64,000 bases of DNA from Akkermansiaceae bacterium (GCA_028822935.1 JAPKCM010000005.1:1-64000); one strand, 5' to 3'. Numbered from the stretch's first letter, positions 17,718-48,716 are shown. Numbers and translations: made by a program. Notes: generated from the letters alone by a model not told the origin.

Positions 17718-18776
17718 TTACTTTCCAAGCCTCTTCCTCCACTCACCAAGCTCTTCTTCCAGGAGCTTCTTCGGCCAACCGCCATACCACGCATAGCCAT
17801 TTCTTCGCTCATCGCCGATGTCCGCTAAGTTCAGTTTAGGCACGCCATCCCGATCGACAAAAATCGCCCGGTTACTTTCGAGATCGTAGAAACGCGCCCA
17901 CAGGGCGGGCGCCGAAGAGTCCTTTTTCACGACCTTATTGAATCCCTCCGGTCCCTTTTCGTCTCTCACCTTCACCACCCGAATTCCCTCGAGCTTGGAG
18001 TTCTCAAACCATCGGGCTGCCGCCTCAATAGAATTCACCACTTCAGGAGAAGGGCTATCGAGACTCATCAGTAAACGAACAATCCCAACCGACTCGCACC
18101 CACTCAAGCTCGCCAGCTCATAGCTCCGGGCAATTTTCGGACGAAAATCATTTTTATCGTGCTGGGCGCACCAACCCGTCAACTGATCGCGCACCCGAAT
18201 TTGACATTTTAAAATACAACCAATGCCACGCTCAAAAGAATTGGCCGCGGCCTCACGACGCGATTTTTTGACAAAGGCATAATCGGCAGAAGTAGCCACT
18301 TCTCGGACAAACTGAAGCAACCTGACCATGGCATTGTCATTAAAAGTAATGTGCCGGTGGTAGCCCTTTCCTGGAGGATTATATTGCGGCCAGCCCCCGT
18401 TGGCATACTGCCCCCCGAGAACATATCCCAAGCCCTCGGAAAAGGCCTCACGATAATCTTCCTCATCGGTCGCTCGAACCATTCGCGCCAGAAATCGCAA
18501 CTCGTCAGTCGTCGCGCCGTTGTCGTAGGTCGCCTGCAGCTGACTCTGCTTTCCCTCGTATTTTTTACCCGTGGTATCGACATTCTTGGGCCAGCCACCC
18601 GACTCGCTTTGAAAAGAAAGAATCGTCGTCGCGACCTCTTTCGCTTCCTCCCCCGAATACCACCCATCCTTCTTCTTGAGATAGTCGCGCGCTTTTCCCT
18701 GAGCCAGCCCAGAACAGAAGCTGACAACAAGAAGGAGAGACAAGGGCGTCTTAAAAAAACAACTGAAGCGGGTCAC
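17718..18776 (-). CDS. secreted pectate lyase, PL10 family
   Basis: Cleaves polygalacturonate by beta-elimination outside the cytoplasm, yielding unsaturated uronates. Landmarks of PL10 are present in order: GGWPKN, TYDNGATTDELRFLA, GGWPQYNP, HITFNDNAM, TGWCAQHD and RSYELASLSGCES. Start is uncertain: no ATG is available, and I chose GTG at 18776, which gives a signal-peptide-like N-terminus (hydrophobic LSLLLVVSFCSG); a TTG at 18794 is the alternative. The length (352 aa) is normal for the catalytic domain alone. The KDPG aldolase/KDG kinase operon at 27847 provides a plausible downstream route for its product. It is transcribed divergently from the sulfatase at 18878. Confidence 0.92.
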   Translation of the reverse strand: MTRFSCFFKTPLSLLLVVSFCSGLAQGKARDYLKKKDGWYSGEEAKEVATTILSFQSESGGWPKNVDTTGKKYEGKQSQLQATYDNGATTDELRFLARMVRATDEEDYREAFSEGLGYVLGGQYANGGWPQYNPPGKGYHRHITFNDNAMVRLLQFVREVATSADYAFVKKSRREAAANSFERGIGCILKCQIRVRDQLTGWCAQHDKNDFRPKIARSYELASLSGCESVGIVRLLMSLDSPSPEVVNSIEAAARWFENSKLEGIRVVKVRDEKGPEGFNKVVKKDSSAPALWARFYDLESNRAIFVDRDGVPKLNLADIGDERRNGYAWYGGWPKKLLEEELGEWRKRLGK

Positions 18777-18877
18777 ACCCAAACTTCTATTCAATTCCGC
18801 TCACCTTGAGGCGCACAAAATCCTGAGGATCATCTTTTCACACTCCAGGATCGCATCCTAAACCGAGTCCGGCTTAC

Positions 18878-20755
18878 ATGGCGTTTATGAAAGCAGCGCT
18901 CTTCTTTATTCTTTTTACGATCATCGCTCCGGCGGCGGATCGGCCCAACATTCTCTGGCTCTCAGCCGAAGACATCGGGGCCCACTTTGGCTGCTACGGC
19001 GATCCTCACGCGATCACTCCCAATCTCGATCAACTTGCCAAAGAAGGAGTCCGTTACACCCACGCCTTCACCGCCGCCGGCGTGTGCGCGCCCTGCCGCT
19101 CCGGAATCATCACGGGAATGTATCAAACATCGATCGGCACCATGCACATGCGCTGCAACGCGGAGATGCCCGACACCATCAAGCCCTTCCCAATTTATCT
19201 CCGGAAGGCGGGCTACTACGGCACGAATAATTCGAAGAAAGATTACCAATTCAAAGACCCGAAAGAGACCTGGGATGTCAGTGGAGGAAAAGGCCACTGG
19301 AAGAACCGAAAGGACGCGAACCAGCCCTTCTTCTCCGTCTTTAATTTCACCGGCTGCCACGAAAGCGGAATCGCCTCGAAGAGCAAGTACGAGAGCGTCA
19401 CGAAAGGCCTCTCCCCCAGCGAGCGACAAGACCCCGATCAACTCGACACCCTTCCCCCTTACTATCCCGCCACCGCGATCGTGAAGGAGGACTGGAAGCG
19501 AAACTACGAGCTCATCACCGCGATGGATGCCTGGGTCGGCGAGCACATCGCCCAGCTCAAAGAAGACGGGCTCTACGAGGACACCATCATCGTTTACTGG
19601 TCCGACCACGGCGTGGGCCTACCCCGGGCCAAGCGCTGGCTCTACGACTCGGGAACTCGCGTCCCCCTCATTGTGCGCATTCCCAAAAAGTGGCGTGTCG
19701 AGGGCCAAGGGAAACCCAACACCGTCGACGACCAGCTGATCAGCTCGCTCGATTTTGGCATCACCGCCTTAAACCTCGCCGGTCTTCCCGCGCCACCGAT
19801 CACGCAAGGCCGCGCCTTCCTCGGCAAGAACCTCACTCCACCGCGCAACTACGTCTTTGGAGCCCGCGATCGGATGGACGAGCGCTACGACATCATCCGC
19901 AGCGTGCGCGACAAAAAATACCGCTACATCCGCAACTACGAGCCCCTCAAGCCTTACTACCAATTCATGAACACGCCGGAAGGCGGAGCGACCATGAAGG
20001 AGCTACGCCGCATCGCAAAAGAAGGCAATATGCCACCCGCGATGAAACTTTTCATGGCCGACCACAAGCCGGTCGAAGAATTCTACGACCTCGAAGCCGA
20101 CCCTCATGAGGTCAACAATCTCGCCAAGGACCCCGCTCACAATGAACGCCTTGATCGTTTTCGCAAAGTCCACAGCCAGTGGATTCGCGACACCCGTGAC
20201 CTCGGTCTCATCCCTGAACCGGAAATCGAGCTCCGCGAAAAAGCCGCCGGTTCCCGCTTTGGAATTCTGGCCAAAGGCCATGACCCCACCCTTCCTGCCC
20301 GCCTTGGCACCATCGCCGCGCAAGCATCCGATGGCATCAACGCCCTCCCGGACCTCCTCGAAGGACTCAAGGACAAGGACGCCGCCGTGCGCTACTGGGC
20401 CACCACCGGCGTGGGAAACATCGGAGTGCCCGCAAAAGAACAATCCGCGACCGCCATTCAAAAAACTCTCAAAAATGATTCCTCCACCGTGGTCCGTATC
20501 GCCGCCGCCCGCGCCCTCCTCCGGATGTCCACCGATGAAGCCGCCGCTCTCACCGAACTCTCCAAGGCCCTCGAAAGCCCCGAGCAATGGTCGCGTCTCC
20601 ACGCCGCTATCGCCCTTGATGAAGCCGACGAACAAGCCCGCTCCGCCATTCCCGCGTTGAAAAAGGCCCTCAAAAAGCAGCCCAACAAATACATCGTCCG
20701 CGTCGCCAACAAAGCGCTCAACGACCTCCAAGGCACGGCAAACAAGGTGAAGTGA
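18878..20755 (+). CDS. secreted sulfatase with C-terminal HEAT-type repeats
   Basis: A 625-aa sulfatase of the heparan-N-sulfatase-like group. Signal peptide 1-20, metal site SAEDIG (Glu31/Asp32, Glu in place of the first Asp), formylglycine motif C70-A-P-C-R, and late WSDHGVGLPRAKRW. The C-x-P-x-R pattern is preserved but position 4 is Cys. After residue about 455 the protein continues into an alpha-helical HEAT/armadillo-like region (LLEGLKDKDAAVRYWATTG, then AAARALLRM and AIALDEADEQARSAIPALKKAL), an appendage that would mediate protein or membrane contacts. An alternative ATG three codons downstream is possible. A truncated sulfatase follows 64 bases later. Confidence 0.93.
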   Translation: MAFMKAALFFILFTIIAPAADRPNILWLSAEDIGAHFGCYGDPHAITPNLDQLAKEGVRYTHAFTAAGVCAPCRSGIITGMYQTSIGTMHMRCNAEMPDTIKPFPIYLRKAGYYGTNNSKKDYQFKDPKETWDVSGGKGHWKNRKDANQPFFSVFNFTGCHESGIASKSKYESVTKGLSPSERQDPDQLDTLPPYYPATAIVKEDWKRNYELITAMDAWVGEHIAQLKEDGLYEDTIIVYWSDHGVGLPRAKRWLYDSGTRVPLIVRIPKKWRVEGQGKPNTVDDQLISSLDFGITALNLAGLPAPPITQGRAFLGKNLTPPRNYVFGARDRMDERYDIIRSVRDKKYRYIRNYEPLKPYYQFMNTPEGGATMKELRRIAKEGNMPPAMKLFMADHKPVEEFYDLEADPHEVNNLAKDPAHNERLDRFRKVHSQWIRDTRDLGLIPEPEIELREKAAGSRFGILAKGHDPTLPARLGTIAAQASDGINALPDLLEGLKDKDAAVRYWATTGVGNIGVPAKEQSATAIQKTLKNDSSTVVRIAAARALLRMSTDEAAALTELSKALESPEQWSRLHAAIALDEADEQARSAIPALKKALKKQPNKYIVRVANKALNDLQGTANKVK

Positions 20756-21232: not shown

Positions 21233-24200
21233 ATGACCGATCGGATCTCACTTTTCCTCTCCCTTTTATCGGCCACTGCACTCGCCGCACCCGACCGCGA
21301 ATCCTTCGCGAAAGAGGATCGACCCATCGAAGGAGTCCCCGTCGAGGCCTTCGATCTCACCAATCCCAATCTTCAAATCGAGGTCTGGGCCCAGTCTCCG
21401 CTCATCTACTCGCCCGTCGCGATGGATACCGATGCCCAAGGCCGCCTTTGGCTCACCGAAGGGCTCGACTACAGCGTTGGTCGACGCGTCGATACCGGCC
21501 AATCAATTATCGTTCTCGAGGACACCAACAACGATGGCAAAGCGGATTCCTCCCACGTCTTCGTCTCTGAAAAAGGCCTCCGCCATGCCCCCCTTGGCAT
21601 CGCCGTTTTCGATAACAAGATCGTCCTCTCCGCCACGCCCTCAATCATCATTTACACCGACGTCGATCGAAACGCCGTCTTCGATCCCGCGATCGACAAG
21701 CGCGAGGTCTTCCTCACCGGCTTCCAAGGCGGCGGTCACGATCACACCCTCCACGCCGTCGTGGGTGCCCCATCCGGCCAATGGCACTTTTCCTTCGGCA
21801 ATTCCGGAGCCGACGTCAAAACAAAGGACGGCCGCCACTTCATCTCCGGTTGCTATTACGGCCACCCGCAGGGCATTGGAAAAAAGAGCTCCGATGGCCA
21901 CGTCTACCCTGGCGGGCTCACCATGCGGGTCAATCCTGATGGCTCCGGACTCACGCCCACCGCGAGCAACATGCGCAATCCTCACGACATGGCGGTGACC
22001 GCTTTTGGGGATATTTTCCAAAGCGATAATGACGACCCGGCCCACTGCCGCTCCTCCTGGGTCATGGAACACTCCAACTTCGGCTACTCCGATCTCACCG
22101 ATGGCTCACGCTCTTGGGAGGAAGTGGCCAAGTCCTGGGAAGAACCCTCCGGCTGGTCGCAAGACCTTCGCTTCTCCCGTTCCCACTGGCGCGAAAACTA
22201 CCCCGGCGCCACTCCTCCGGGGTCCGTGTATGGTGCCGGCTCCCCCACCGGTAATGTCTTCATCGAGGACGACATCCTCGGTCTCAAAGGTACCTACCTT
22301 GTCGCTTGCATGGTCCGCAAGCAGATCATGGCCTGCCTTCCCAGACTCACCGATGGGCGTATCGAGATGGGTAAACATCAGGATTTCATTCAGCTCAAGG
22401 AGGGAGAGAAAGGACAATTCTTCCTCCCGACTGATCTTCTCATTGGCACCGATGGCTCTCTCTTCCTGAGTGACTTCTACAACAACACTTCCCGCCGTAC
22501 CAACCAGGTCAGTGGCACGATCTACCGCATCACTCGAAAAGATGCCGCGCCCCTCAAGCGTCCCACCATCGACTTCTCCACCACCGCCGGCCTCCTCGCC
22601 GCGCTTGATAACCCGGCGATCAACGTCCGCTCCCATGCCGCGCACCTCCTCGTCAAGGGTGGTGATTTTTTATCCATCCACCGTTCGTTAATGAAAGCCG
22701 TCTCACCCGAATCCATCGCGCGACGTCTCTGGATTCTGGCTCAATTAAAAGCCGACGAACGCAGTTCCGTTGTTCCCTATCTCACAATGGACAACCCAAA
22801 CCTTCAAATCACTGCCTACCGTGCGTTGACCTTTGCCGACCCCGATAATCTGATCGCTTACGCGACGGGTTCGATCGCCGAGGCGCAATCCAACCTTTCA
22901 CTGGCACGGGAGATCGCGGTCTCATTAAGGGGCCAATCCTTTGAGAGCATCAAACACCTTCTGCCAAGCCTTATCGAACTCTACCATGGTCGCAACCGCA
23001 CCTACCTCGAAGCCCTCGGCATCGCCTTCACTGGAATGGAAAAGGAAGTCTACCTCAAGCTCATCCGCCCCATCTTTGGCGATCCAACCTCGTGGAGCAA
23101 AACCGCCCGCAATCTCGCATGGCGACTCCACACGCCCGAAGCCATCGCCGATCTCGACAAAACGATCCGCGCCCAAAAACCACCCGTCGATGAATTCCGC
23201 CACCTTGCCATGGCCTTCGCCTCTTTCCGAAATGACGCCGAGCGCATCGACCGAATCAAGCGCCTCAGCGATCTCGCCAAACTCCCCGCCTTCGCGGCCG
23301 AGGAATATCAAATCACAGTGCAAGAAATTATCGCAAAGGACCTCAACGACCTCGAAGCCCTCGCCTTGAAGAGCGACTACAAAGTCCCCGAATCCTTCGG
23401 CGTCATCAGCAAGGTCTCGCACTCGGCCACTGTCGCGAAGCTCAAGGGCGACGCCACCCGCGGCAAAGCCCTCGCGCTACGCTGTTCCGTCTGCCACAAG
23501 ATTAATGGGAATGGCATCAACTTTGGACCAGACCTCAGCCACTGGGGCCAGGAACGCACCATCGAAAAGATCGCCCACGAAATCATCAACCCCGATGAGC
23601 ACCTCGCGCATGGCTACGAAAAATCCGTCCGCCTCAAGGGCAACGGCCACACCGCCGAAGGCCTCCTCTCCAACTTCTCGTGGCACGCCGGCAGCCTCAA
23701 AATTAAAGTGATGGGCGGCACTACCTTGAAGGTCCCCTTCCGCCGAACCGGCACCAAGGTGGAAAACCTCAAAGAATCATGGATGCCCGGCGCCGCCGAG
23801 ATGGGCTTCAGCGATCAAGACGTCCGCGACATCGCCGAATATCTCCACACCCTCGAACGCCCCGTCATTGAAAAGAAGTCCGACGGCGCGCCCGGAGACA
23901 CCCAGGCCAGCGGATGGCAGGTTCTTGAAGGAGAAGATTTTCTCAACGTGAACTGCCATGACGACACCTGGACCTGGAAGGGCGGCCACGCCTTCTGCAA
24001 TGGAAAGCCCACCGGAGTGATCCGCTACCACGAGCCCCTCAAGAATTTCGAATTCGCCTGCGAATGGATGCACAAAGAGAAGGGCGGGAACTCCGGCGTC
24101 TTCGTCTGGGCCACCCCCGATTCCATCAATCGCCTCGCCGCCGGACAGGGCCGACTCCCACAGGGAATCGAAGTCCAAGTCCTCGATCTCGGCTACGCCG

Positions 24201-24796
24201 AAGTCTACAAAAAACAGTATAACAAACCCGCCGATTGGTTCACTTCCCACGGCGACGTCTTCCCCGTCGGTCCGATCAAGATGACCCCCTTCCCACCTGT
24301 CGCCCCGAATGGCCGCCGCAGTTTCCCCTCGAAAGAAACGACCAAGGGACTCAACGAGTGGAACCACTACTTCATCCGGGCGATCGATGGCGAAGTCCGT
24401 CTTTGGGTGAATGGCGAAGAAGTCTCTGGCGGCAATAATATCTCACCCGCCTCCGGCTTCCTCTGCCTCGAGTCCGAAGGAGCCCCGATCGAGTTCAAAA
24501 ACATCCGCCTCCGCAAGATCACCCCTCCTGCTGAAATCCCCTCGGTCAAAATGGAGAAGCTTAAAAAAGTAGATCTCACCGGCCACGCCCTCCTCGGCAC
24601 CTGGCACTACGGCAGCCACAGCCGCGAGATCACCCCCGATGGATTCTGCATCCTCCGCCAGGGGAAAGAAGTCATCTGGAAACGCACCGCCACCGCCCAA
24701 ACAAAAGACTCCCTCACCTTCGAAGGGGACCTTTCCCACACTCTCAAAGGCGACACCCTCCACATCGAAGGCCGCTACCAAGCAACGCGGAAGTAG
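21233..24796 (+). CDS. PVC-type beta-propeller / heme CxxCH protein fused to DUF1080
   Basis: A 1187-aa exported fusion. Signal peptide 1-19; six-bladed propeller of the membrane-bound dehydrogenase/sorbosone-dehydrogenase-like type (about 45-440, with VAMDTDAQGRLWLTEG and FLPTDLLIGTDGSLFLSD); helical HEAT-like region (about 450-720); Planctomycetes/Verrucomicrobium-type heme-binding domain (about 735-885) with C751-S-V-C754-H755; a complete DUF1080 domain (about 890-1090; GVIRYHEPLKNFEFACEW, GLNEWNHYFIRA, FKNIRLRKI); and a C-terminal 95-residue beta-rich segment (LLGTWHYGSHSREITPDG). The propeller/heme unit suggests electron-accepting sugar oxidation and the DUF1080 unit glycoside cleavage; the coupling is inferred. 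It is preceded by the truncated sulfatase. Confidence 0.92.
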   Translation: MTDRISLFLSLLSATALAAPDRESFAKEDRPIEGVPVEAFDLTNPNLQIEVWAQSPLIYSPVAMDTDAQGRLWLTEGLDYSVGRRVDTGQSIIVLEDTNNDGKADSSHVFVSEKGLRHAPLGIAVFDNKIVLSATPSIIIYTDVDRNAVFDPAIDKREVFLTGFQGGGHDHTLHAVVGAPSGQWHFSFGNSGADVKTKDGRHFISGCYYGHPQGIGKKSSDGHVYPGGLTMRVNPDGSGLTPTASNMRNPHDMAVTAFGDIFQSDNDDPAHCRSSWVMEHSNFGYSDLTDGSRSWEEVAKSWEEPSGWSQDLRFSRSHWRENYPGATPPGSVYGAGSPTGNVFIEDDILGLKGTYLVACMVRKQIMACLPRLTDGRIEMGKHQDFIQLKEGEKGQFFLPTDLLIGTDGSLFLSDFYNNTSRRTNQVSGTIYRITRKDAAPLKRPTIDFSTTAGLLAALDNPAINVRSHAAHLLVKGGDFLSIHRSLMKAVSPESIARRLWILAQLKADERSSVVPYLTMDNPNLQITAYRALTFADPDNLIAYATGSIAEAQSNLSLAREIAVSLRGQSFESIKHLLPSLIELYHGRNRTYLEALGIAFTGMEKEVYLKLIRPIFGDPTSWSKTARNLAWRLHTPEAIADLDKTIRAQKPPVDEFRHLAMAFASFRNDAERIDRIKRLSDLAKLPAFAAEEYQITVQEIIAKDLNDLEALALKSDYKVPESFGVISKVSHSATVAKLKGDATRGKALALRCSVCHKINGNGINFGPDLSHWGQERTIEKIAHEIINPDEHLAHGYEKSVRLKGNGHTAEGLLSNFSWHAGSLKIKVMGGTTLKVPFRRTGTKVENLKESWMPGAAEMGFSDQDVRDIAEYLHTLERPVIEKKSDGAPGDTQASGWQVLEGEDFLNVNCHDDTWTWKGGHAFCNGKPTGVIRYHEPLKNFEFACEWMHKEKGGNSGVFVWATPDSINRLAAGQGRLPQGIEVQVLDLGYAEVYKKQYNKPADWFTSHGDVFPVGPIKMTPFPPVAPNGRRSFPSKETTKGLNEWNHYFIRAIDGEVRLWVNGEEVSGGNNISPASGFLCLESEGAPIEFKNIRLRKITPPAEIPSVKMEKLKKVDLTGHALLGTWHYGSHSREITPDGFCILRQGKEVIWKRTATAQTKDSLTFEGDLSHTLKGDTLHIEGRYQATRK

Positions 24797-27846: not shown

Positions 27847-28500
27847 ATGATGAGTGTATTTCCAGAAGAACTCTTAAGTCACCTTGAAAAACGCGGCGTG
27901 GTCGCGGGATTTTCGGTGAAGAACATCGAGCACGCGGTGCCTTTGGCGCAAGCGTTATTGGCGGGCGGGATCGATATCATTGAGCTGACCTTGCGGACGC
28001 CGATTGGCTTGGACGCGGTGAAGTTGATTGCCGACGAAGTGCCTGAGATGGTGGTCGGTGTCGGGACGATTCTTACTCCTGAAACGGCAGTTGCGGTGAA
28101 GGAAGCGGGAGCTCATTTCGGGGTTGCACCGGGAATGAATCCTCGGGTGGTGAAGGCCGCTCAGGAGGCTGGCCTTCCATTTGCACCGGGGATTTGCACG
28201 CCCTCTGATTTGGAAGCGGCGATCGAGCTCGGTTGTCGCTTTGTCAAATTTTTCCCAGCTGAGGCGGCGGGTGGGCTGACCTACTTGAAGAGCATGGCGG
28301 CGCCCTATGACCATCTTGGGATTCGCTACTTCCCGCTGGGTGGGGTGAACTCGGAGAATATGTTGGATTACCTTGCTGAGGATTTTGTTCCGACGGTTGG
28401 TGGCACTTGGATTGTCGCGAAGGATTTTGTTCAAAATGAAGATTGGGCCGAGATCACCGCCGCTGCGCAAGAAGTCGTTAACACCATAAAAAGATCATGA
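27847..28500 (+). CDS. eda: 2-dehydro-3-deoxy-phosphogluconate (KDPG) aldolase
   Basis: Cytoplasmic class I aldolase that cleaves KDPG to pyruvate and glyceraldehyde-3-phosphate; members may also act on 4-hydroxy-2-oxoglutarate. The 217-aa product has the family pattern: IDIIELTLRTP (Glu46), VGVGTILTPE, FGVAPGMNP, GICTPSD and the Schiff-base lysine in RFVKFFPAE (Lys134). Length is normal. The start could be ATG at 27847 or the adjacent one at 27850; no Shine-Dalgarno is visible. Its stop overlaps the ATG of the KDG kinase gene in an ATGA junction, indicating translational coupling. It is one of the few plainly cytoplasmic enzymes in this region. Confidence 0.95.
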   Translation: MMSVFPEELLSHLEKRGVVAGFSVKNIEHAVPLAQALLAGGIDIIELTLRTPIGLDAVKLIADEVPEMVVGVGTILTPETAVAVKEAGAHFGVAPGMNPRVVKAAQEAGLPFAPGICTPSDLEAAIELGCRFVKFFPAEAAGGLTYLKSMAAPYDHLGIRYFPLGGVNSENMLDYLAEDFVPTVGGTWIVAKDFVQNEDWAEITAAAQEVVNTIKRS

Positions 28501-29588
28501 GCAATATCGTCGTTTCTTTTGGAGAAATCATGGGCCGGATGGCCGCACAAGATCATTTACGTTTGCGCCAGTCGCACGTGCTCGACGTCACCTACGCGGG
28601 TGCGGAGGCAAGTGTCGCAGCATCGATCTGCAACTTTGGCGGAAAGGCCCGTTATATTACGGCCCTGCCGAAACATGCGCTCGCGGAAGCGACGATGGAC
28701 GCGGTTCGCAGGGTCGGGATCGATACGAACTTCGTGCTGCGCACGGACACCGGACGTCTGGGACTTTACTTCCTCGAGACAGGCGCGAATCAGCGGCCGA
28801 GTAACGTGATTTATGATCGTGAGGACTCAGCAATTGCGATCACGCCAGCCGATCAATACGATTGGGATGGAATTTTTGAGGGCGCTTCTTGGCTCCATCT
28901 TTCGGGGATCACTCCGGCGCTTTCTAAGAATGCCGCGGATGCCACTTTGGTCGCTGCGCAAAAGGCGAAGGCGGCGGGCGCGACGGTATCGATTGATTTG
29001 AACTTCCGAGGCAAGCTTTGGAAATGGCAGGAGTCGAAATCGGGACGCGAGTTGGCTCAGGAAGTGATGCGCGGGATTTTGCCTTTTGTGGATGTTCTCA
29101 TCGCGAACGAGGAGGATTGTCACGACGTGCTCGGGATTCGTGCGGGTCAGACTGACGTGCACTCTGGAGCGCTTGATGTTTCGCACTATCCTGATGTCGC
29201 CCGTCAGGTGGTGGAGCAGTTCCCGAATCTCAGCAAGGTGGCGATCACGCTGCGTGAAAGCATTTCTGCGACTCATAACAACTGGGGCGCGATGCTTTAT
29301 GATGCGGGTTCAAAGTCGGCTTCATTTGCACCGCTTGATGCGGAGGGGAACTATCGTCCCAACGAGATTCGCAATATTGTCGATCGGGTGGGCGGTGGAG
29401 ATTCCTTTGCGGGCGGGCTTATTTTTTCGCTGACCACTCCGGATCTTAGTGAGTCGCAAACTGCCGTGAACTACGCGGTGGCAGCTTCCACGCTAAAGCA
29501 CTCGATCAAGGGTGACTTTAACTTTTCAACTCGTGGCGAAGTGGAATCGCTTATGGGCGGTTCGGCATCGGGGCGCGTTGTTCGATAA
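28497..29588 (+). CDS. kdgK: 2-dehydro-3-deoxygluconokinase (PfkB family)
   Basis: Phosphorylates 2-keto-3-deoxygluconate to KDPG, the substrate of the upstream aldolase. The 363-aa product is a PfkB-fold sugar kinase: N-terminal VVSFGEIMGRM, the substrate lid region AGAEASVAASICNFGG, central SIDLNFRGKLW, ANEEDCHDVLG, and the catalytic signature DRVGGGDSFAGG near 316-326. The Gly in place of the second-position Ala of the usual GAGD motif is tolerated in KDG kinases. The ATGA overlap with the aldolase gene shows an operon. Together they form the lower part of uronate catabolism; isomerase and reductase steps are not in the window. Confidence 0.93.
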   Translation: MSNIVVSFGEIMGRMAAQDHLRLRQSHVLDVTYAGAEASVAASICNFGGKARYITALPKHALAEATMDAVRRVGIDTNFVLRTDTGRLGLYFLETGANQRPSNVIYDREDSAIAITPADQYDWDGIFEGASWLHLSGITPALSKNAADATLVAAQKAKAAGATVSIDLNFRGKLWKWQESKSGRELAQEVMRGILPFVDVLIANEEDCHDVLGIRAGQTDVHSGALDVSHYPDVARQVVEQFPNLSKVAITLRESISATHNNWGAMLYDAGSKSASFAPLDAEGNYRPNEIRNIVDRVGGGDSFAGGLIFSLTTPDLSESQTAVNYAVAASTLKHSIKGDFNFSTRGEVESLMGGSASGRVVR

Positions 29589-29786: not shown

Positions 29787-31277
29787 TCAGGCGAGGATAT
29801 CCTTGATGACGTGTCCATGGACATTGGTCAGGCGACGTTCGAGCCCGTTGTGGTAGTAGGTGAGGCGCTCGTGATCGAGACCCATGAGGTGGAGGATGGT
29901 GGCGTTGAAATCATAGACACTCGTGGGATCTTTTTCGGCTTTGGCTCCGAAGCGATCTGAGGCGCCATGGCTGTAGCCTTTCTTGACGCCTGCTCCGGCG
30001 AGGAAGCAGGTGAAGGCATCGGGGTTGTGATCACGTCCCGTGCCATTTCCCTGCAGGAAGGGCATGCGCCCGAACTCAGTTGCCCAGACGATGAGGGTGT
30101 CGTCGAGCATCCCCCGCTGTTTCAGGTCGGCGATGAGGGCAGCGGTGGGCTGGTCCATGATCTCGGCCTGCATCGCGTGGGTGTCCTTGATATTGGAGTG
30201 GGAATCCCAGTTGGTGATGCCATTTCCACCAGAGGGATCGGAGCCATTAAAGAGCTGGACGACGCGCACGCCCTTTTCGAGAAGGCGGCGGGCGAGGATA
30301 CAGTTCTTGGCATATTCTTTTTTGAGATCGCTTCCGGTATCGGTGCCGTATTGTTTGTGGATGGAGGCAGGCTCGCCCTTGAGGTCCATGATGTCAGGGA
30401 CGGACATTTGCATTTTCCCCGCCATCTCGTAGGAGGCGATGCGGGCGGCGAGGTCGTTATCGGCAGGGAAGCGCTCAAGGTGTTTGGAGTTGAGCTTTTG
30501 GAGAAGATTGATGGTAGCGCGGTCATGCGCGCTGCTGTAGCCGGCGGGGCGGGTGAGGTTCGCTGGTGGGTTCTTGGCGTTGAAGTCAGTGCCTTGGAAA
30601 GAAGCAGGGAGGAATGCCGAGCCGAAGTTGTTTTTTCCGGAGCGCGCCATGCCGCGAGGGTCATTGATGGCAACGAAGGCGGGGAGGTCCTTGCACTGGG
30701 AGCCGAGGGCGTAGGTCATCCAAGCACCAGCAGAGGGGAAGCCTTCCATGGTGAATCCGGTGTTGAGAAAATTCTCTCCCTGCGGGTGGGCCGAGGTCTG
30801 GGTGTGGAGCGAGTGGAGGAAGCAGAAGTCATCAGCATGCCGAGCGAGGTTCGGCACGAGATCTGAGATCATCTTCCCCGATTGACCGCGCGGCTTGAAA
30901 TCCCAAAATGGCTTGGCGATGTTTCCAGTGGGTCCCTCGAAGGTGACGGCGGGAATGCCGGGAGGCTTCTGGCCATGGAACTTGGTGAGGTCTGGCTTGT
31001 AATCCCAAGTGTCGACATGGGAGACGGCACCAGGGCAGAAAATGATGAGGACACGCTTGGCAGGGGCCTCGTGGTGAGGCGCTCGCGAGGAGTAAGGCTT
31101 ATCCGGATCAATGACGGGCCGGATGGGAGATTTACCCGTGAAATTCGTCGTTTCCTCAGCTTCTGAGCCGAGGAGTTGGGCGAGGCCGAGGCCACCGAGG
31201 GCGAGGGCACTGCTATTCATGAAGCCGCGGCGGTCGAGGAGCCTACGGCCAAGGGGGGAGAGGTGTTCTGGATTCAT
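29787..31277 (-). CDS. DUF1501 secreted protein
   Basis: A 496-aa member of the DUF1501 family (alkaline-phosphatase/sulfatase-like fold, function not established), typically encoded next to a PSD1 protein. The N-terminus RRGFMNSSALALGGLGLAQLL is a Tat-like signal. Family landmarks are CPGAVSHVDTWDYKP, a central HTQTSAHPQGENF, NWDSHSNIKDTHAMQ, and VWATEFGRMPFLQG...RDHNPDAF in the C-terminal metal-site position. Its ATG overlaps the stop of the PSD1 gene by four bases (ATGA), so translation is coupled. It is the last gene of the four-gene minus-strand operon. Confidence 0.95.
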   Translation of the reverse strand: MNPEHLSPLGRRLLDRRGFMNSSALALGGLGLAQLLGSEAEETTNFTGKSPIRPVIDPDKPYSSRAPHHEAPAKRVLIIFCPGAVSHVDTWDYKPDLTKFHGQKPPGIPAVTFEGPTGNIAKPFWDFKPRGQSGKMISDLVPNLARHADDFCFLHSLHTQTSAHPQGENFLNTGFTMEGFPSAGAWMTYALGSQCKDLPAFVAINDPRGMARSGKNNFGSAFLPASFQGTDFNAKNPPANLTRPAGYSSAHDRATINLLQKLNSKHLERFPADNDLAARIASYEMAGKMQMSVPDIMDLKGEPASIHKQYGTDTGSDLKKEYAKNCILARRLLEKGVRVVQLFNGSDPSGGNGITNWDSHSNIKDTHAMQAEIMDQPTAALIADLKQRGMLDDTLIVWATEFGRMPFLQGNGTGRDHNPDAFTCFLAGAGVKKGYSHGASDRFGAKAEKDPTSVYDFNATILHLMGLDHERLTYYHNGLERRLTNVHGHVIKDILA

Positions 31278-34021
31278 GGCAGGAAGGCGAATTCGTTAGA
31301 GTTGATGAGGGTGCGGCAGACGATGGGGAGACCGTGGGCGGATACGATCTCGAGGCTGGCGGTGAGTTCCTGCCCGGAGGGGGCGCGATTGAGAAGAAGG
31401 TGGAAGGCGCGGGTGACGGCACCTTTCTGATCTCCCCCGGCATCGCTCAGAGCGCGCTCGGCGATGAACTCTGACTGGGTGACGACGAAGGGGCTGTTGA
31501 GAAGATTGAGCGCTTGGAGCGGGGTGGTGGAGATGGAGCGCTTGGCGCGGACCTGGCCGCAGTCGGGGAAATCGAAGGCGGTGAAGATCTGGTCATCGAC
31601 GCGGCGCATGCGCTCTTGGTAGAGCATGCGGCGCCAGGTCTTTGGACCGTGGTTATCGACGACTTCCCATTGCGAGTAGGTCTGCTTCTCATTGTGGATG
31701 CGGAAGCTGCGCCCGCCGATGGAGGGGTCGAGCTTGCCGGAGGCTTGCAGGATGCCATCACGGATGACCTCGGCCTCAATCCGGCGAGGCGGGAAGCGCC
31801 AAAGGAGGGTGGAGCTGGCATCGCTCTGAAGGGCGAGGCTTTCCGGATTGCTGGCGCGGCGGAAGGCATCCGAACTGACGATGAGGCGAATCATGGACTT
31901 CATCGACCAGTCCTCCTCGACAAATTCTGAGGCGAGGAAATCGAGAAGTTCGGGGTGGGAGGGCGGTGCTCCGGCGAGCCCGAAATCGCTCGCGGTAGGG
32001 ACGATGCCCATGCCGAAAATATGGTGCCAAATGCGGTTCACCATGACGCGTGAGGTGAGCGGATTTTCGGGACGGATGAGCCACTCGGCGAATTTTCTTC
32101 GCCGCTCTGGGTCGGGTGCGCTGGAGTCGAGGCCGAGGTCGCCATCGAGAATCTCGAAGCCGCGAGGCATGACTTCATCGCGGGGGTTCTCCGGGGAGCC
32201 ACGGTGGAGGACCTTGGTGCCGACGGGCTTTTGAAAACGGCCGATGAAGGAGTGGCGGGGACCTTCCTCAGAGAGCTGACCGATGAGGGTGTGGAGGCGG
32301 TTGTGAGCGGCCTTGAGTTCGGGATCTTTATTGAGGCGATTTTTTGCGTACTGGCTGTGGGCGATCTGCTTCCAGGTGCCGTCTTCCTGCAGGGTGGAAA
32401 TCCTGAAGTTGGGCGGGTAGTAGGCCGTGGATTTTTTGCCCTGCTTATTAACGAGGTAGTCGGTCTCGAAGTAATATTCGCGGTTCGAGGAGGAGCGGAA
32501 GCGGTTGACAGTCTGTGGCTCGGTGAAGTGGATTTCGACCCAAGGGCGATCAGGGGAATCTTTTGGCGCCTTGGATTTCCACATCATGGTGCCAAAGTAG
32601 CCATCGTTCGCATTGTGGAGGTCGCCACGATTTTGGGTCATCGCGGGGTCGGTCTTGAGGGTGGCGCCCTCGGAGCTGAGAGCGAAGTTTTGGCGATGGT
32701 CTTTGGGGCCAAAGATTTCGAGTTCGTCAATGAAGACGGAGGGGTTGGTGAAGTCGATGCGGACGGCCTTGGTGGTTTCGGCTTTGAATTGGTAGTCTTG
32801 GAAACCACCCCAGTGCTCGGCCCAAGAGAGGCCGGCTTGGCGGAGTGTTTGACGCTCTTTGAAGATCTGTCGGTAGAGTTCTTTGGCACGCTTCTTCCGG
32901 GGGTGCTCGTCTGAGAGTTCGGGGTGGCGACCGCCGAATTCGACGCCTTGGAAGACGGCGGTGAGGGCGTAGTAGTCCTGGATGGAGATGGGATCGAACT
33001 TGTGATTATGGCAGCGGGCGCAAGAGACGGTCATGCCAAGCATGGAGGCACCGACGGTCTGGACGACTTCATCGAGTCGGTCGGCCCGGGCTTGGCGAAT
33101 GGCCGTGGCTTCGGCGCCGACAGTGGCGGCGGGAACGTGGGGGCCTGCGACAAGGAATCCGGTGGCCTCACCTGCGCCCATGGTATCGCCTGCGATTTGT
33201 TCGCTGATGAACTGGTTGTAGGGAACGTCGTTATTAAAGGCGCGCACGACGTAGTCGCGGTAGACCCAGGCATTCTTACGATAAAGGTTCGCTTCGGAGC
33301 CATTTGTCTCGGCCCAACGGATGGCATCGAGCCAGTGCTGCGCCCAGCGCTCGCCGAAGTGAGGGGAGGCGAGGAGTTCCTCGATGAGCCTCTCGTATGC
33401 TTGCGGGTCATTTTTAAAATGACTGACGAAGCGCGCGCTGCGCTCGGGCGTGGGAGGAAGGCCGGTGAGGGTGATGGAGGCACGGCGCACGAGGGAGAGC
33501 GGGTCGGCCCCGGGGTTCGCTTTGAGCTCCGCTTTTTCGAGGGCTCGACTGAGGAAAGCATCGATAGGGTGGCTTTTCCCGGCTGGGATTTCCGGGCGCT
33601 TGACGGGCTGGAGGGACCAGTGATCTGAAGTGGGCTTTGCCGCAACGGCATCCATCTGGCCGGGCCATTTGGCACCTTCCGCAATCCACTTTTCAAGGGC
33701 GGCGACTTGTTCGCTGGTGAGGGGGTCGCCCTTTGGTGGCATGGCCATCTCGGGGTCGAGCTGCTTGACCACCTCGATGAGGAAACTCTTCTCCGGCTTA
33801 CCGGGCACGATAGAGGGGAGGCCGGAGTCGCCGCCCTTCAGCATGATGGCACGCCGATCGAGACGGAGATTGGCTTTTTGCTTATCGGGACCGTGGCACT
33901 TGAGGCAGCGGTCTTCAAGGATCGGAAGGACGTCTTTTGCGAAGTCGATGGCGGCTGAATAGGCGCTTCCAAGGGAGAAGGCCAAAATACTAACGAAGAT
34001 CGAAAGGCGAGGAGAAGTCAT
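31274..34021 (-). CDS. PSD1 / planctomycete cytochrome C, DUF1549-DUF1553 protein
   Basis: A 915-aa exported protein. Signal peptide 1-23 is followed by a cytochrome C-like domain with C39-L-K-C42-H43, MAMPP axial-ligand-like segment and GKP motifs (about 25-125); DUF1549 (about 150-360) containing a second C334-A-R-C337-H338 motif; an inserted discoidin-like carbohydrate-binding region (about 405-555; VRIDFTNPSVFIDELEIFG, WVEIHFTEPQTVNRFR); and DUF1553 (about 640-890; ENPLTSRVMVNRIWHHIFG, ending before the DUF1501 gene). These proteins are thought to work with DUF1501 partners on extracellular glycans, but no reaction is proven. It is coupled by ATGA overlap to the DUF1501 gene and separated by 17 bases from the FecR-LamG gene. 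Confidence 0.95.
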   Translation of the reverse strand: MTSPRLSIFVSILAFSLGSAYSAAIDFAKDVLPILEDRCLKCHGPDKQKANLRLDRRAIMLKGGDSGLPSIVPGKPEKSFLIEVVKQLDPEMAMPPKGDPLTSEQVAALEKWIAEGAKWPGQMDAVAAKPTSDHWSLQPVKRPEIPAGKSHPIDAFLSRALEKAELKANPGADPLSLVRRASITLTGLPPTPERSARFVSHFKNDPQAYERLIEELLASPHFGERWAQHWLDAIRWAETNGSEANLYRKNAWVYRDYVVRAFNNDVPYNQFISEQIAGDTMGAGEATGFLVAGPHVPAATVGAEATAIRQARADRLDEVVQTVGASMLGMTVSCARCHNHKFDPISIQDYYALTAVFQGVEFGGRHPELSDEHPRKKRAKELYRQIFKERQTLRQAGLSWAEHWGGFQDYQFKAETTKAVRIDFTNPSVFIDELEIFGPKDHRQNFALSSEGATLKTDPAMTQNRGDLHNANDGYFGTMMWKSKAPKDSPDRPWVEIHFTEPQTVNRFRSSSNREYYFETDYLVNKQGKKSTAYYPPNFRISTLQEDGTWKQIAHSQYAKNRLNKDPELKAAHNRLHTLIGQLSEEGPRHSFIGRFQKPVGTKVLHRGSPENPRDEVMPRGFEILDGDLGLDSSAPDPERRRKFAEWLIRPENPLTSRVMVNRIWHHIFGMGIVPTASDFGLAGAPPSHPELLDFLASEFVEEDWSMKSMIRLIVSSDAFRRASNPESLALQSDASSTLLWRFPPRRIEAEVIRDGILQASGKLDPSIGGRSFRIHNEKQTYSQWEVVDNHGPKTWRRMLYQERMRRVDDQIFTAFDFPDCGQVRAKRSISTTPLQALNLLNSPFVVTQSEFIAERALSDAGGDQKGAVTRAFHLLLNRAPSGQELTASLEIVSAHGLPIVCRTLINSNEFAFLP

Positions 34022-45327: not shown

Positions 45328-47370
45328 ATGGTTCGTCCTAGAATCACCTTCCTTCTTTTTCTCATCTTGGCCGGGGGGCTTCGAGCTTCCCCAAATGGTG
45401 ACATCCTTAAGGTGTTTCAGACCAGCTGTGTCAAGTGCCACGGGAAAGACGACAAAGTAAAAGGAAAGGTCAATCTCCTGGAGATTCACAGTCTCGATGC
45501 GCTCAAAAAAAATCCCCAACTCTTGGGTAAAATCGTCGAAGCCATCGACTTCGAAGAAATGCCCCCCGAAGACGAGCCCCAGCTTGCACCCGAGACGAGA
45601 AAGGACCTCCTCACCAGTCTCGAAGACTTGCTCGATGAGTCACTCGCCGAATCCAAAGTTTACCCCAAGGCCCCCATCCGCAGGATGACGCGTTTTCAAT
45701 ACAACAACGCCGTCACCGATCTCTTCAATCTAAATTGCACCGTCTTTACTCTCCCGGAGCGCATGATGCGCGACCACAAAAACTACTTCAAACCGGAGAC
45801 CGAAAAAATGGCGCCCATCGTCACGGTCGGAAATCGTCCTCTCGGAAAATCGCAAATGATCGAACCCCGCCTGGCGGGCGTCACCGCCTTCCCGCAGGAC
45901 CTCCGAGCCGAACACGGCTACGACAACCAAGGCGATCATTTGTCCCTCTCCCCTCTCCTGATGGAGGCCTTTTTAAAACTGGGTCAGTCCATCGTTCAAA
46001 GTGCCGACTTTAATCCCAGGCGCGTGGGAATTTGGAAATCATTCTTCGCTCCTCCGCGCGAAAACGAAGACCTCAGTAAGGTCGTTACGGAGCGACTTCA
46101 GTCCCTCCTCAAAAAAGCCTTCCGCCGTCCGGTCAATCCCGCGGTGTTAGATCGCTACTCCAACTACGTGCTCAGCCGAATGGAATTAGAAGCCGACTTC
46201 ACCAGCGTCATGAAGGCAGTTTCGGCTGCCGTCATTTCCTCTCCCAATTTTCTCTATCTCTACGACAGCACAAGCGAAGGAGAAGAAATGGGCCGTGTCG
46301 ATGGATTCGACCTCGCCTCCCGGCTCTCTTTTTTCCTTTGGGGAAGCCTCCCTGATGACGAACTTCTGAAACTCGCCGAGTCGGGTAAACTTTTAAAAGA
46401 GGAAATCCTCACCGCCCAACTCGATCGCATGCTCAAGGATCGCAAAATAAAGCGCTTCTGCGATAGCTTCCCATCCCAGTGGCTCCAGCTCGAACGCATC
46501 ATTTCCTCGGTTCCTGATCCCAAGAAATTTCCTAAATTCTACTACTCCAAATATCGCACCAGCATGCACATGCTCATGGAGCCGCTCTTGCTTTTCGAAA
46601 CAGTCCTCATCGAAAACATGCCCATCACGCAGCTCCTCGATTCCGATTTCACCTACCGCTCCGGACATCTGGAAGACGCCTATGGAAAATTGGGTGAGGT
46701 CGGGAAAAAGAAAAAGGGCCAGGTCGGAGCAATGGCCTTCCACCGGGTTCCGGTGAAGGATCGACGCAACGGCGGAATCATCACCAACGCCGCCGTCATG
46801 ACAATGACCTCCGGACCCGAGCGCACCCAACCGATCACCCGTGGCGCGTGGCTGGCCGGCGTCATTTTTAACAATCCCCCGGAACCGCCTCCGGCAAACG
46901 TCCCCGCCCTCGGCGAAAAACCAAAAGATGGTGAGGAACATCTCACTCTTCGGGAGCGCCTCTCGATGCATCGCGAACGCGCCGATTGCCGGGGCTGCCA
47001 CGAACAAATCGACCCCTTGGGCTTCGCCCTCGAGAACTACAACGCCATCGGAAAATGGCGTAAAAAATACGAGAACGGCCGCGACGTCGACATGCAGGGC
47101 ACGCTATTTCGAAAGCACGACTTCGAAAACGTCACCGATTTTAAGGACGCCATTCTCGCTGAAAAAGACCGCTTCGCCCGCGGCCTCGCCGGCCACCTTT
47201 TATCATTCAGCCTGGGCCGGGAACTCGGCGTGGCCGATGCCGTGATCCTCGATGAGATCGCCGATGCCACCGCAAAGGATGGCTATCGCTTCAAAACTCT
47301 GATACGGGAAGTGGTGAAAAGTGAGCCCTTTCTCACCAAGTCGAATCCCAAAACAAAAGCCAGCCAATGA
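45328..47370 (+). CDS. DUF1592-type planctomycete cytochrome (PSD) protein
   Basis: A 680-aa exported protein with the DUF1587-DUF1595-DUF1592-DUF1588-DUF1585 arrangement. Signal peptide 1-20; N-terminal cytochrome C-like domain with C34-V-K-C37-H38 and EMPPED; DUF1587 region RRMTRFQYNNAVTDLF; DUF1592 block DGFDLASRLSFFLWGSLPDD; DUF1588 block GGIITNAAVMTMTSGPERT then PITRGAWL; DUF1588 heme-like C554-R-G-C557-H558 followed by IDPLGFALENYN; and DUF1585 at the end. Homologues are always paired with DUF1552 proteins; the enzymatic role is not established. An ATGA overlap couples it to the DUF1552 gene. Its own start ATG is 18 codons after a TAA-rich region with no Shine-Dalgarno. Confidence 0.93.
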   Translation: MVRPRITFLLFLILAGGLRASPNGDILKVFQTSCVKCHGKDDKVKGKVNLLEIHSLDALKKNPQLLGKIVEAIDFEEMPPEDEPQLAPETRKDLLTSLEDLLDESLAESKVYPKAPIRRMTRFQYNNAVTDLFNLNCTVFTLPERMMRDHKNYFKPETEKMAPIVTVGNRPLGKSQMIEPRLAGVTAFPQDLRAEHGYDNQGDHLSLSPLLMEAFLKLGQSIVQSADFNPRRVGIWKSFFAPPRENEDLSKVVTERLQSLLKKAFRRPVNPAVLDRYSNYVLSRMELEADFTSVMKAVSAAVISSPNFLYLYDSTSEGEEMGRVDGFDLASRLSFFLWGSLPDDELLKLAESGKLLKEEILTAQLDRMLKDRKIKRFCDSFPSQWLQLERIISSVPDPKKFPKFYYSKYRTSMHMLMEPLLLFETVLIENMPITQLLDSDFTYRSGHLEDAYGKLGEVGKKKKGQVGAMAFHRVPVKDRRNGGIITNAAVMTMTSGPERTQPITRGAWLAGVIFNNPPEPPPANVPALGEKPKDGEEHLTLRERLSMHRERADCRGCHEQIDPLGFALENYNAIGKWRKKYENGRDVDMQGTLFRKHDFENVTDFKDAILAEKDRFARGLAGHLLSFSLGRELGVADAVILDEIADATAKDGYRFKTLIREVVKSEPFLTKSNPKTKASQ

Positions 47371-48716
47371 GACGAACATCACGACGTGACTTCCTTCGCG
47401 GCTTCGGCGGTGCCGCCTTGGCCCTCCCATGGCTGGAAAGTATCGCGGCTCCCGTTAAATCCGCTCAAGTGGCCAAACGGATGGCACATTTTTACGTCCC
47501 CATCGGAGTGGTGCGCCGTGGCTTTTTCCCGGGAGAAGCGGATGACATCATCCCAAAAGGGAATCTCGGAAACGTGATGAAGTCTCTGGGAAAACAGAAC
47601 CCAAACTACTCCGTCTCGAAGCTCGATCGCCTGACGCCCACGATGCAACCCTTGGAAGCCTTCAAGGATCAGATCAACCTCATCACCGGAATGGACCGGA
47701 CCTTCCAGCAGGGAACCGATGTCCACGCCCAGTGCGCATCCTGCTACCTTAGCAGTGCCCCTCCCTACACCATCAAGGGAACCGCCTGGCCTCTCGATCG
47801 AACCCTCGATCATCTGGTCGCCGATGTCGTGGGCCAGAAAACCCCTTTCCCCACCTTAGAGTTCAGCTGCAACAGCCACCAGGACAACAAGGAATCGATC
47901 TACTTCGATAACATCTCTTGGTACGGCACCGGACACGTCGCACCCTCGCTTCGCGATCCTCGTAAAATGTATCATCGTTTGTTTTCAACCCGAGAAATCG
48001 AGAAATACCGTGATGTCACCGATTTGGTTCTCGAAGATGCCCGCTCCCTAAAACGCGATCTCGGTTACGAAGACGGGCAGAAATTTGCCGAGTATTTCGA
48101 CTCCATCCGCGCCATCGAAACGCAAATGGATCGCCTCGAAAAAATGAAAAAAGAGCTCGCAAAAGTGACCTTCGATGAACCCCCGGAAGCCTACTTACCC
48201 CGTGGAGAATACATCCGCCTAATGGGCGACCTCATGCTCGTCGCTCTGCAAACCGGCCTCACCAATGTCACCACCTTCATGGTCGGTCCCGAACGATGGG
48301 ACACGCCCTACAAATTTGAAGGCCTCTTTGATAAACCAAAGAGCCACCATCAGATGTCGCACAATCAAACGAAGATGATCGATGACCTCCTGAAGGTCGA
48401 CCGCTTCCACATGGAGCAATACACCTATCTCCTCGAAAAAATGGCCGCGATGAAGGAAGCCGATGGCACCTCGCTCTTGGACAACACCCTCTTCACTTAC
48501 GGCTCCGGTCTCGGTGATGGTTCGACCCACCAATACAACGACCTCCCGATCATCGTCGCCGGTGGTGGCGCTTCCACGAAGTCAGGTCAGCACATCAACA
48601 TGGCCGAAGGCACCCCGCTCGCCAACCTCTGGCTCACCCAAGCGCGCATGATGGGCGTCGAGACAAAGCGCTTCGCCGATAGCACCGCCGAAATTGGTGC
48701 TATAAAAACAGGCTAA
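47367..48716 (+). CDS. DUF1552 secreted protein (Tat substrate)
   Basis: A 449-aa DUF1552-family protein that pairs with DUF1592 proteins in Planctomycetes and Verrucomicrobia. The N-terminus has a textbook Tat motif SRRDFLRG followed by GGAALALPWLE. Internal landmarks are FYVPIGVVRRGFFPG, GTDVHAQCASCYLSS, EFSCNSHQDN, FMVGPERWDTPYKFEG, SHHQMSHNQTK and NTLFTYGSGLGDGSTHQYNDLPI, shown in parts. Its alkaline-phosphatase-like fold resembles DUF1501. Translation is coupled to the upstream gene by ATGA. Its TAA directly abuts the stop of the convergent sulfatase at 48717, leaving no intergenic space. Confidence 0.95.
   Translation: MRRTSRRDFLRGFGGAALALPWLESIAAPVKSAQVAKRMAHFYVPIGVVRRGFFPGEADDIIPKGNLGNVMKSLGKQNPNYSVSKLDRLTPTMQPLEAFKDQINLITGMDRTFQQGTDVHAQCASCYLSSAPPYTIKGTAWPLDRTLDHLVADVVGQKTPFPTLEFSCNSHQDNKESIYFDNISWYGTGHVAPSLRDPRKMYHRLFSTREIEKYRDVTDLVLEDARSLKRDLGYEDGQKFAEYFDSIRAIETQMDRLEKMKKELAKVTFDEPPEAYLPRGEYIRLMGDLMLVALQTGLTNVTTFMVGPERWDTPYKFEGLFDKPKSHHQMSHNQTKMIDDLLKVDRFHMEQYTYLLEKMAAMKEADGTSLLDNTLFTYGSGLGDGSTHQYNDLPIIVAGGGASTKSGQHINMAEGTPLANLWLTQARMMGVETKRFADSTAEIGAIKTG

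Follow-up and report, generated by a model that had tools for sequence, protein, structure and literature searches.

A conserved and repeatedly assembled fusion of a sugar-dehydrogenase-fold propeller, a c-type cytochrome and a DUF1080 domain in Verrucomicrobiota

A propeller, a c-type cytochrome and a DUF1080 domain are joined in one protein of 1187 amino acids; this fusion is genuine and conserved, and it has been assembled repeatedly. The gene is a single uninterrupted ORF with an ATG start at 21233-24796 (+) of the window, by which we mean the whole 64,000-nucleotide stretch of an Akkermansiaceae genome that was analyzed. From the N-terminus, a TIGR02604 propeller is followed by a helical linker, a cytochrome c with CxxCH, the DUF1080 domain and, at the C-terminal end, a small beta domain. 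The ORF, the NCBIfam and Pfam matches and the structure model agree with the initial annotation that propeller, linker, heme and DUF1080 parts lie on one chain, and the domain search it had proposed returned TIGR02604, TIGR02603, DUF7133, Cytochrom_C and PF06439. Residues 1 to ~19 (MTDRISLFLSLLSATALAA; 21233-21289, +) read as a probable Sec signal peptide, with which the whole protein would be secreted. The full-length structure model has a mean pLDDT of 76, with a weak region at residues 266-337. A survey of homologues recovered the same full-length fusion in more than 30 other Verrucomicrobiota genomes at 48-85% identity, which rules out both an assembly error and a fortuitous ORF. None of the papers found in our literature search describes this fusion.

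The propeller (residues 45-440; 21365-22552, +) matches TIGR02604 at residues 47-436 with 245 bits against a curated NCBIfam cut-off of 122, and DUF7133 (Pfam) at residues 44-418. The best fold matches of its model were 3a9g (Z 26.6), the AA12 enzyme 6h7t (Z 26.0) and 7cgz (Z 26.0). PQQ sugar dehydrogenases and AA12 scored Z 26.6-24.3 in this search, as against 23 for HHIP and 21 for DFPase, and 1qbi gave Z 22.8. GSDH was not among the Pfam matches of the fused protein, and a search of PDB sequences with the propeller profile returned NHL/teneurin-type repeats only and no sugar dehydrogenase. The link to sugar dehydrogenases comes from structure and from a profile alignment to PF07995 (GSDH), for which GSDH proteins of relatives were used (E 8e-6). 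In this alignment, the catalytic His of GSDH pairs with H171 and its RN motif with R248-N249, while the GSDH Lys position is V361 and the RxRD motif is L398-P-T400-D401; V361, L398, P399 and D401 are invariant across 25 orthologues. The propeller thus has the fold, the His and the RN motif of the PQQ sugar dehydrogenases (GSDH and AA12 pyranose dehydrogenase) but, unlike these, has neither the anchoring Lys nor the RxR clamp in the profile alignment, residues that we take to hold the PQQ carboxylates.

PQQ genes were also not detected in the host. A first search for PqqC gave no match even in 14 control genomes and was then widened to the phylum, where 5 of 240 genomes scored over the cut-off and served as a positive control. 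Neither the host genome, which is 4.59 Mb and 96% complete, nor 15 relatives gave a match to PqqC, and none of these genomes had a PqqE over the cut-off (best score in the host 64 bits versus 381). Because the PQQ anchors are lost and PqqC and PqqE were not found, classical PQQ use by the propeller is unlikely, although the host could conceivably take up PQQ from outside.

The HEAT-like linker (residues 441-735; 22553-23437, +) is wholly helical in the structure model over residues 451-704. The c-type cytochrome that follows (TIGR02603, residues 739-873; 23447-23851, +) contains C751-x-x-C754-H755 and M851-P852. TIGR02603 scored 117 bits against an NCBIfam cut-off of 68, and Pfam placed Cytochrom_C at residues 742-789. 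C751, C754, H755, the distal M851 and P852 are all invariant in an alignment of 25 orthologues (A1), and a ResB homologue of the c-heme maturation type is present in the genome. The heme is located in this separate domain and not in the propeller, which the initial annotation had called heme-type. The first three domains and their order are identical to those of the PVC-type heme-binding CxxCH proteins (TIGR02604 + HEAT + TIGR02603), Lac161_ORF7 included. The ordinary proteins of this kind stop after the heme domain, whereas the window protein adds DUF1080 and the small beta domain.

The DUF1080 domain (3keto-disac_hyd, LESEG subtype; residues 891-1094; 23903-24514, +) matches PF06439 with 95 bits against a gathering threshold of 26.8, over profile positions 10-187 of 187. 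Its model fits the DUF1080 structure 3u1x (Z 17.0), the eliminase/hydratases 9fbe (Z 16.2), 8tda (14.9), 8v31 (14.9) and 8rr2 (14.6), and also 3osd. The levan-binding module CBM66 (4azz), which has the same jelly-roll fold, scored Z 15.6 with an rmsd of 3.0 and only 13% identity. Since this score falls amid those of the enzymes, fold alone, as modelled here, cannot tell a DUF1080 enzyme from a binding module. The motifs GGNSG (951-955) and EVQVLD (980-985) are retained, a set that is DUF1080-like and differs from CBM66 in this respect. They are shared with the 3-keto-glycoside eliminase/hydratases of Bacteroides (BT2157/BT2, AL2; PF06439), as GGNSG and E-x-Q-V-L-D, along with the fold (Z 14.6-16.2 over 177 residues). 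However, BT2157-type enzymes are single-domain proteins with a QDHG motif, while the fused protein carries LESEG on a redox scaffold. In the motif survey, the His of QDHG was absent from the fused DUF1080, which has Glu instead, and this E1082 is invariant in 25 orthologues. The 9fbe construct carries QDNG and is otherwise identical to 8rr2 in the stretches compared. Its Asn is apparently a substitution for His, introduced to trap the intermediate, which suggests that the His of QDHG is probably catalytic. Glu occupies this position in three further DUF1080s of the genome as well (L111, L113 and L118), and most of the genome's DUF1080s with a clear motif have His there. The published BT2157 structures reportedly include a Ca2+ site.

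No other part of the fused protein is as conserved as DUF1080, in which 89 of 205 columns are invariant. The C-terminal beta domain (residues 1118-1187; 24584-24793, +) is conserved and travels with it; this segment had no family match in Pfam and has a pLDDT of ~90 in the model of the C-terminal part alone, which reached a mean pLDDT of 83.5. Structure prediction, proposed as a check by the initial annotation, gave both halves the expected folds (PQQ sugar dehydrogenase and eliminase/hydratase). Measured against the grounds for refutation named in the initial annotation, the outcome is thus divided: the propeller has a pocket-forming fold, but it is doubtful whether it binds a cofactor, and one residue of DUF1080 is in question.

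All relatives with matches are Verrucomicrobiota, and the named ones are Verrucomicrobiales and Opitutia MAGs. They carry the fusion on two scaffold lineages: clade 1, which includes the window protein and is 58-85% identical to it, and clade 2, which is about 48-51% identical to it and comprises most genomes of the window's genus and some others of the order. Within clade 1, identity is 76% for the propeller, 54% for HEAT, 64% for the cytochrome, 79% for DUF1080 and 56% for the C-terminal domain. Between the clades the corresponding values are 47%, 35%, 46-48%, 73-76% and 48-50%, and identity jumps from ~45% to ~80% near residue 890, whereas within-clade identity shows no step. In the trees, a single clade with support of 100/100 holds all fused DUF1080s and separates them from the standalone ones, and the branch to the clade 2 DUF1080s is only 0.07; the clade 1 and clade 2 scaffolds are ~1.5 changes per site or more apart. 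Since the propellers are 47% and the DUF1080s 73-76% identical between the lineages, the cassette would have been joined more than once, and the simplest reading of these sequences is that the two scaffolds diverged first and that DUF1080 plus the C-terminal domain was then joined to the second one. One ancestral fusion followed by ordinary divergence is disfavoured by the identity step near residue 890, which is seen between clades only. Four genomes have scaffold orthologues lacking DUF1080 (G050, G132, G135 and G083); all four branch outside fused clade 1, and no DUF1080 gene of this subfamily adjoins any of them.

Partial arrangements were also seen. In one genome (G171, locus L144), a DUF1080 gene lies directly upstream of an unfused propeller gene on the same strand, and the propeller and heme parts read as two ORFs. 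In another (G005), a 397-aa ORF (L053:4409-5599) consists of clade 2-type DUF1080 and C-terminal domains only, with no propeller found nearby, and may be a gene remnant or a free cassette. At the contig end of L001 (row 2 of A1), the reading frame closes with LLYTSPSPRDRG, which resembles read-through into a sequencing adapter.

The host genome has 47 DUF1080 matches, and several of these are fusions of other kinds. Three proteins (L178, L183 and L184) have an N-terminal DUF1080 followed by a TIGR02604-type propeller and a cytochrome, the order opposite to that of the window protein, with TIGR02604 under the cut-off in L184. L180:5020-9978 combines DUF1080, TIGR02604 and ThuA. The joining of DUF1080 to ThuA is also seen in L186:3108-5816. 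L177:634-3261 (contig C44) joins DUF1080, an eight-blade propeller of the quinoprotein type (PF01011) and a cytochrome c on one chain; because the matches to this propeller part listed in 113 genomes of the order are without DUF1080, the fusion may be local to this genome. This PF01011 propeller fusion sits in a genome in which no PqqC was found. In L185:3109-5988 (contig C24), one chain carries a propeller that matches TIGR02604 weakly, a TIM barrel of the xylose-isomerase-like kind and DUF1080, and its domains could between them provide oxidation, elimination and hydration. These repeated fusions speak strongly, if circumstantially, for a joint function of DUF1080 and propeller/heme units. 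In the same genome, DUF1080 is also joined to sulfatases (L182 and L187) and to GH43, a pattern of hydrolase fusions that is also expected of a binding module. As for standalone copies, the closest ones (LESEG subfamily) stand head-to-head with a Gfo/Idh/MocA oxidoreductase gene in three genomes (L042, L044 and L045), with the two genes 5 bp apart in L042, or head-to-head with a sulfatase (L016-L018 and L041). Gfo/Idh/MocA enzymes generate the 3-keto sugar in known pathways.

The leading, if unproven and tentative, explanation of this architecture is that one secreted heme enzyme oxidises a glycan and then cleaves it. Breakdown of the glycan would take place outside the cytoplasm: the propeller would take a sugar end and strip two electrons, the tethered cytochrome c would hand these to the respiratory chain, and DUF1080 would cleave or rehydrate the keto-sugar via elimination and water addition. 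Because oxidation and the DUF1080 step would occur on the same chain, the unstable intermediate is proposed to stay there. Sugar oxidation by the propeller, C3 as the site of attack, the cofactor used and catalysis by DUF1080 are inferred; the explanation rests mainly on the repeated coupling and on fold. The idea of an oxidiser fused to a cleaver, put forward in the initial annotation, is supported in part: the folds, the invariant heme site and the joining of the cassette to two scaffolds speak for it, and we also count in its favour H171/R248-N249, ResB, the other fusions, the L144 adjacency, the Gfo/Idh/MocA partners of unfused DUF1080s and the polysaccharide locus described below. The PQQ anchors and the His are missing and PQQ genes were not found, and the two residue tests (PQQ clamp and DUF1080 His) weigh against a simple transfer of known mechanisms. 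Known enzymes with the PQQ sugar dehydrogenase propeller fold oxidise C1, while DUF1080 substrates require a C3 ketone. This, the four scaffolds without DUF1080 and the lactose cleavage reported for Lac161_ORF7 (see below) are also counted against it. A fuller version, in which a PQQ-free propeller would deliver electrons to the c-heme, a Glu-type DUF1080 would cleave the keto-sugar, and Verrucomicrobiota would have assembled this family of single-chain oxidative glycosidases several times, is in our estimate unlikely.

There are three other possibilities for the fused protein. Its DUF1080 domain could be a non-catalytic CBM66-type module that anchors the redox part to polysaccharide, with all chemistry done by the propeller and heme. 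The fit of the CBM66 structure is close to that of the enzymes, the His is replaced by Glu, and the sulfatase and GH43 fusions are binding-module-like; however, the domain is conserved more strongly than binding modules usually are, GGNSG and EVQVLD are retained, and standalone relatives are paired with an oxidoreductase in three genomes. We regard this possibility as rather unlikely. Alternatively, DUF1080 could be a working eliminase/hydratase on 3-keto-glycosides supplied by other dehydrogenases, with the propeller and heme carrying out an unrelated oxidation, for example at C1 of the released sugar. The C1 specificity of propeller-fold enzymes and the Gfo/Idh/MocA partners, a separate candidate for C3 oxidation, fit this, and with 47 DUF1080 matches in the genome the pathway need not sit on one chain. 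Yet the repeated joining of the cassette to propeller/heme scaffolds would be left unexplained, and we hold this to be distinctly improbable.

The remaining possibility, also improbable, is that the propeller-HEAT-heme part cleaves glycosides without net oxidation, as has been reported for Lac161_ORF7, and that DUF1080 adds a second processing or binding activity. Lac161_ORF7, the only protein of TIGR02604 type for which our literature search found a reported activity, is described as TIGR02604 + HEAT + CxxCH without DUF1080, and the purified protein reportedly split lactose to yield glucose, with a Km of 1.8 mM and a kcat of 13 per s (PMC5342196). The loss of PQQ anchoring fits such non-oxidative cleavage, but an invariant heme site with a distal Met would be odd for a plain hydrolase. 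In addition, the passages describing Lac161_ORF7 place its plasmids in E. coli BL21(DE3)pLysS and contain no statement on heme loading (PMC5342196); in our view, host LacZ could have contaminated the preparation, and the Km resembles that of LacZ. An assignment of Lac161_ORF7 to CAZy GH173 was given no support by the papers found, and we claim no CAZy family. On the DUF1080 side, genetic evidence indicates that BT2157 acts on 3-ketotrehalose, and CCNA_01705 has been proposed, also from genetic evidence, to act on 3'-ketolactose (PMC9007349). Elimination chemistry itself has been shown by AtOGE and CGE, whose folds are unrelated (PMC10628242).

These bacteria encode very many TIGR02604 heme proteins and also very many DUF1080 proteins. 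If the oxidise-then-cleave explanation is true, the propeller-heme family would gain a role in which oxidation feeds elimination, glycan depolymerisation would be tied to respiration, and both steps would be measurable in a one-protein system. The same cassette has been joined repeatedly, which makes the prediction directly testable.

The genes surrounding the fusion point to the likely substrate. The window contains a pectic acid lyase (17718-18794, -), three sulfatases, an adjacent pair of KDPG/KHG aldolase and PfkB sugar kinase (27847-29588, +) and two further DUF1080 genes. One of the sulfatases (18878-20755, +) is directly upstream of the fused gene on the same strand, as is also the case at L008/L153, L148 and L150. 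The aldolase/PfkB pair fits uronate breakdown. From these neighbours only, the substrate is likely a sulfated and/or uronate-containing polysaccharide. The clade 2 genes of the genus have cell-wall and housekeeping genes as neighbours. Elsewhere in the window, at 29787-34021 and 45328-48716, are two gene pairs typical for bacteria of this kind, DUF1501 with PSCyt1/DUF1549/DUF1553 and DUF1592/1588/1585 with HXXSHH.
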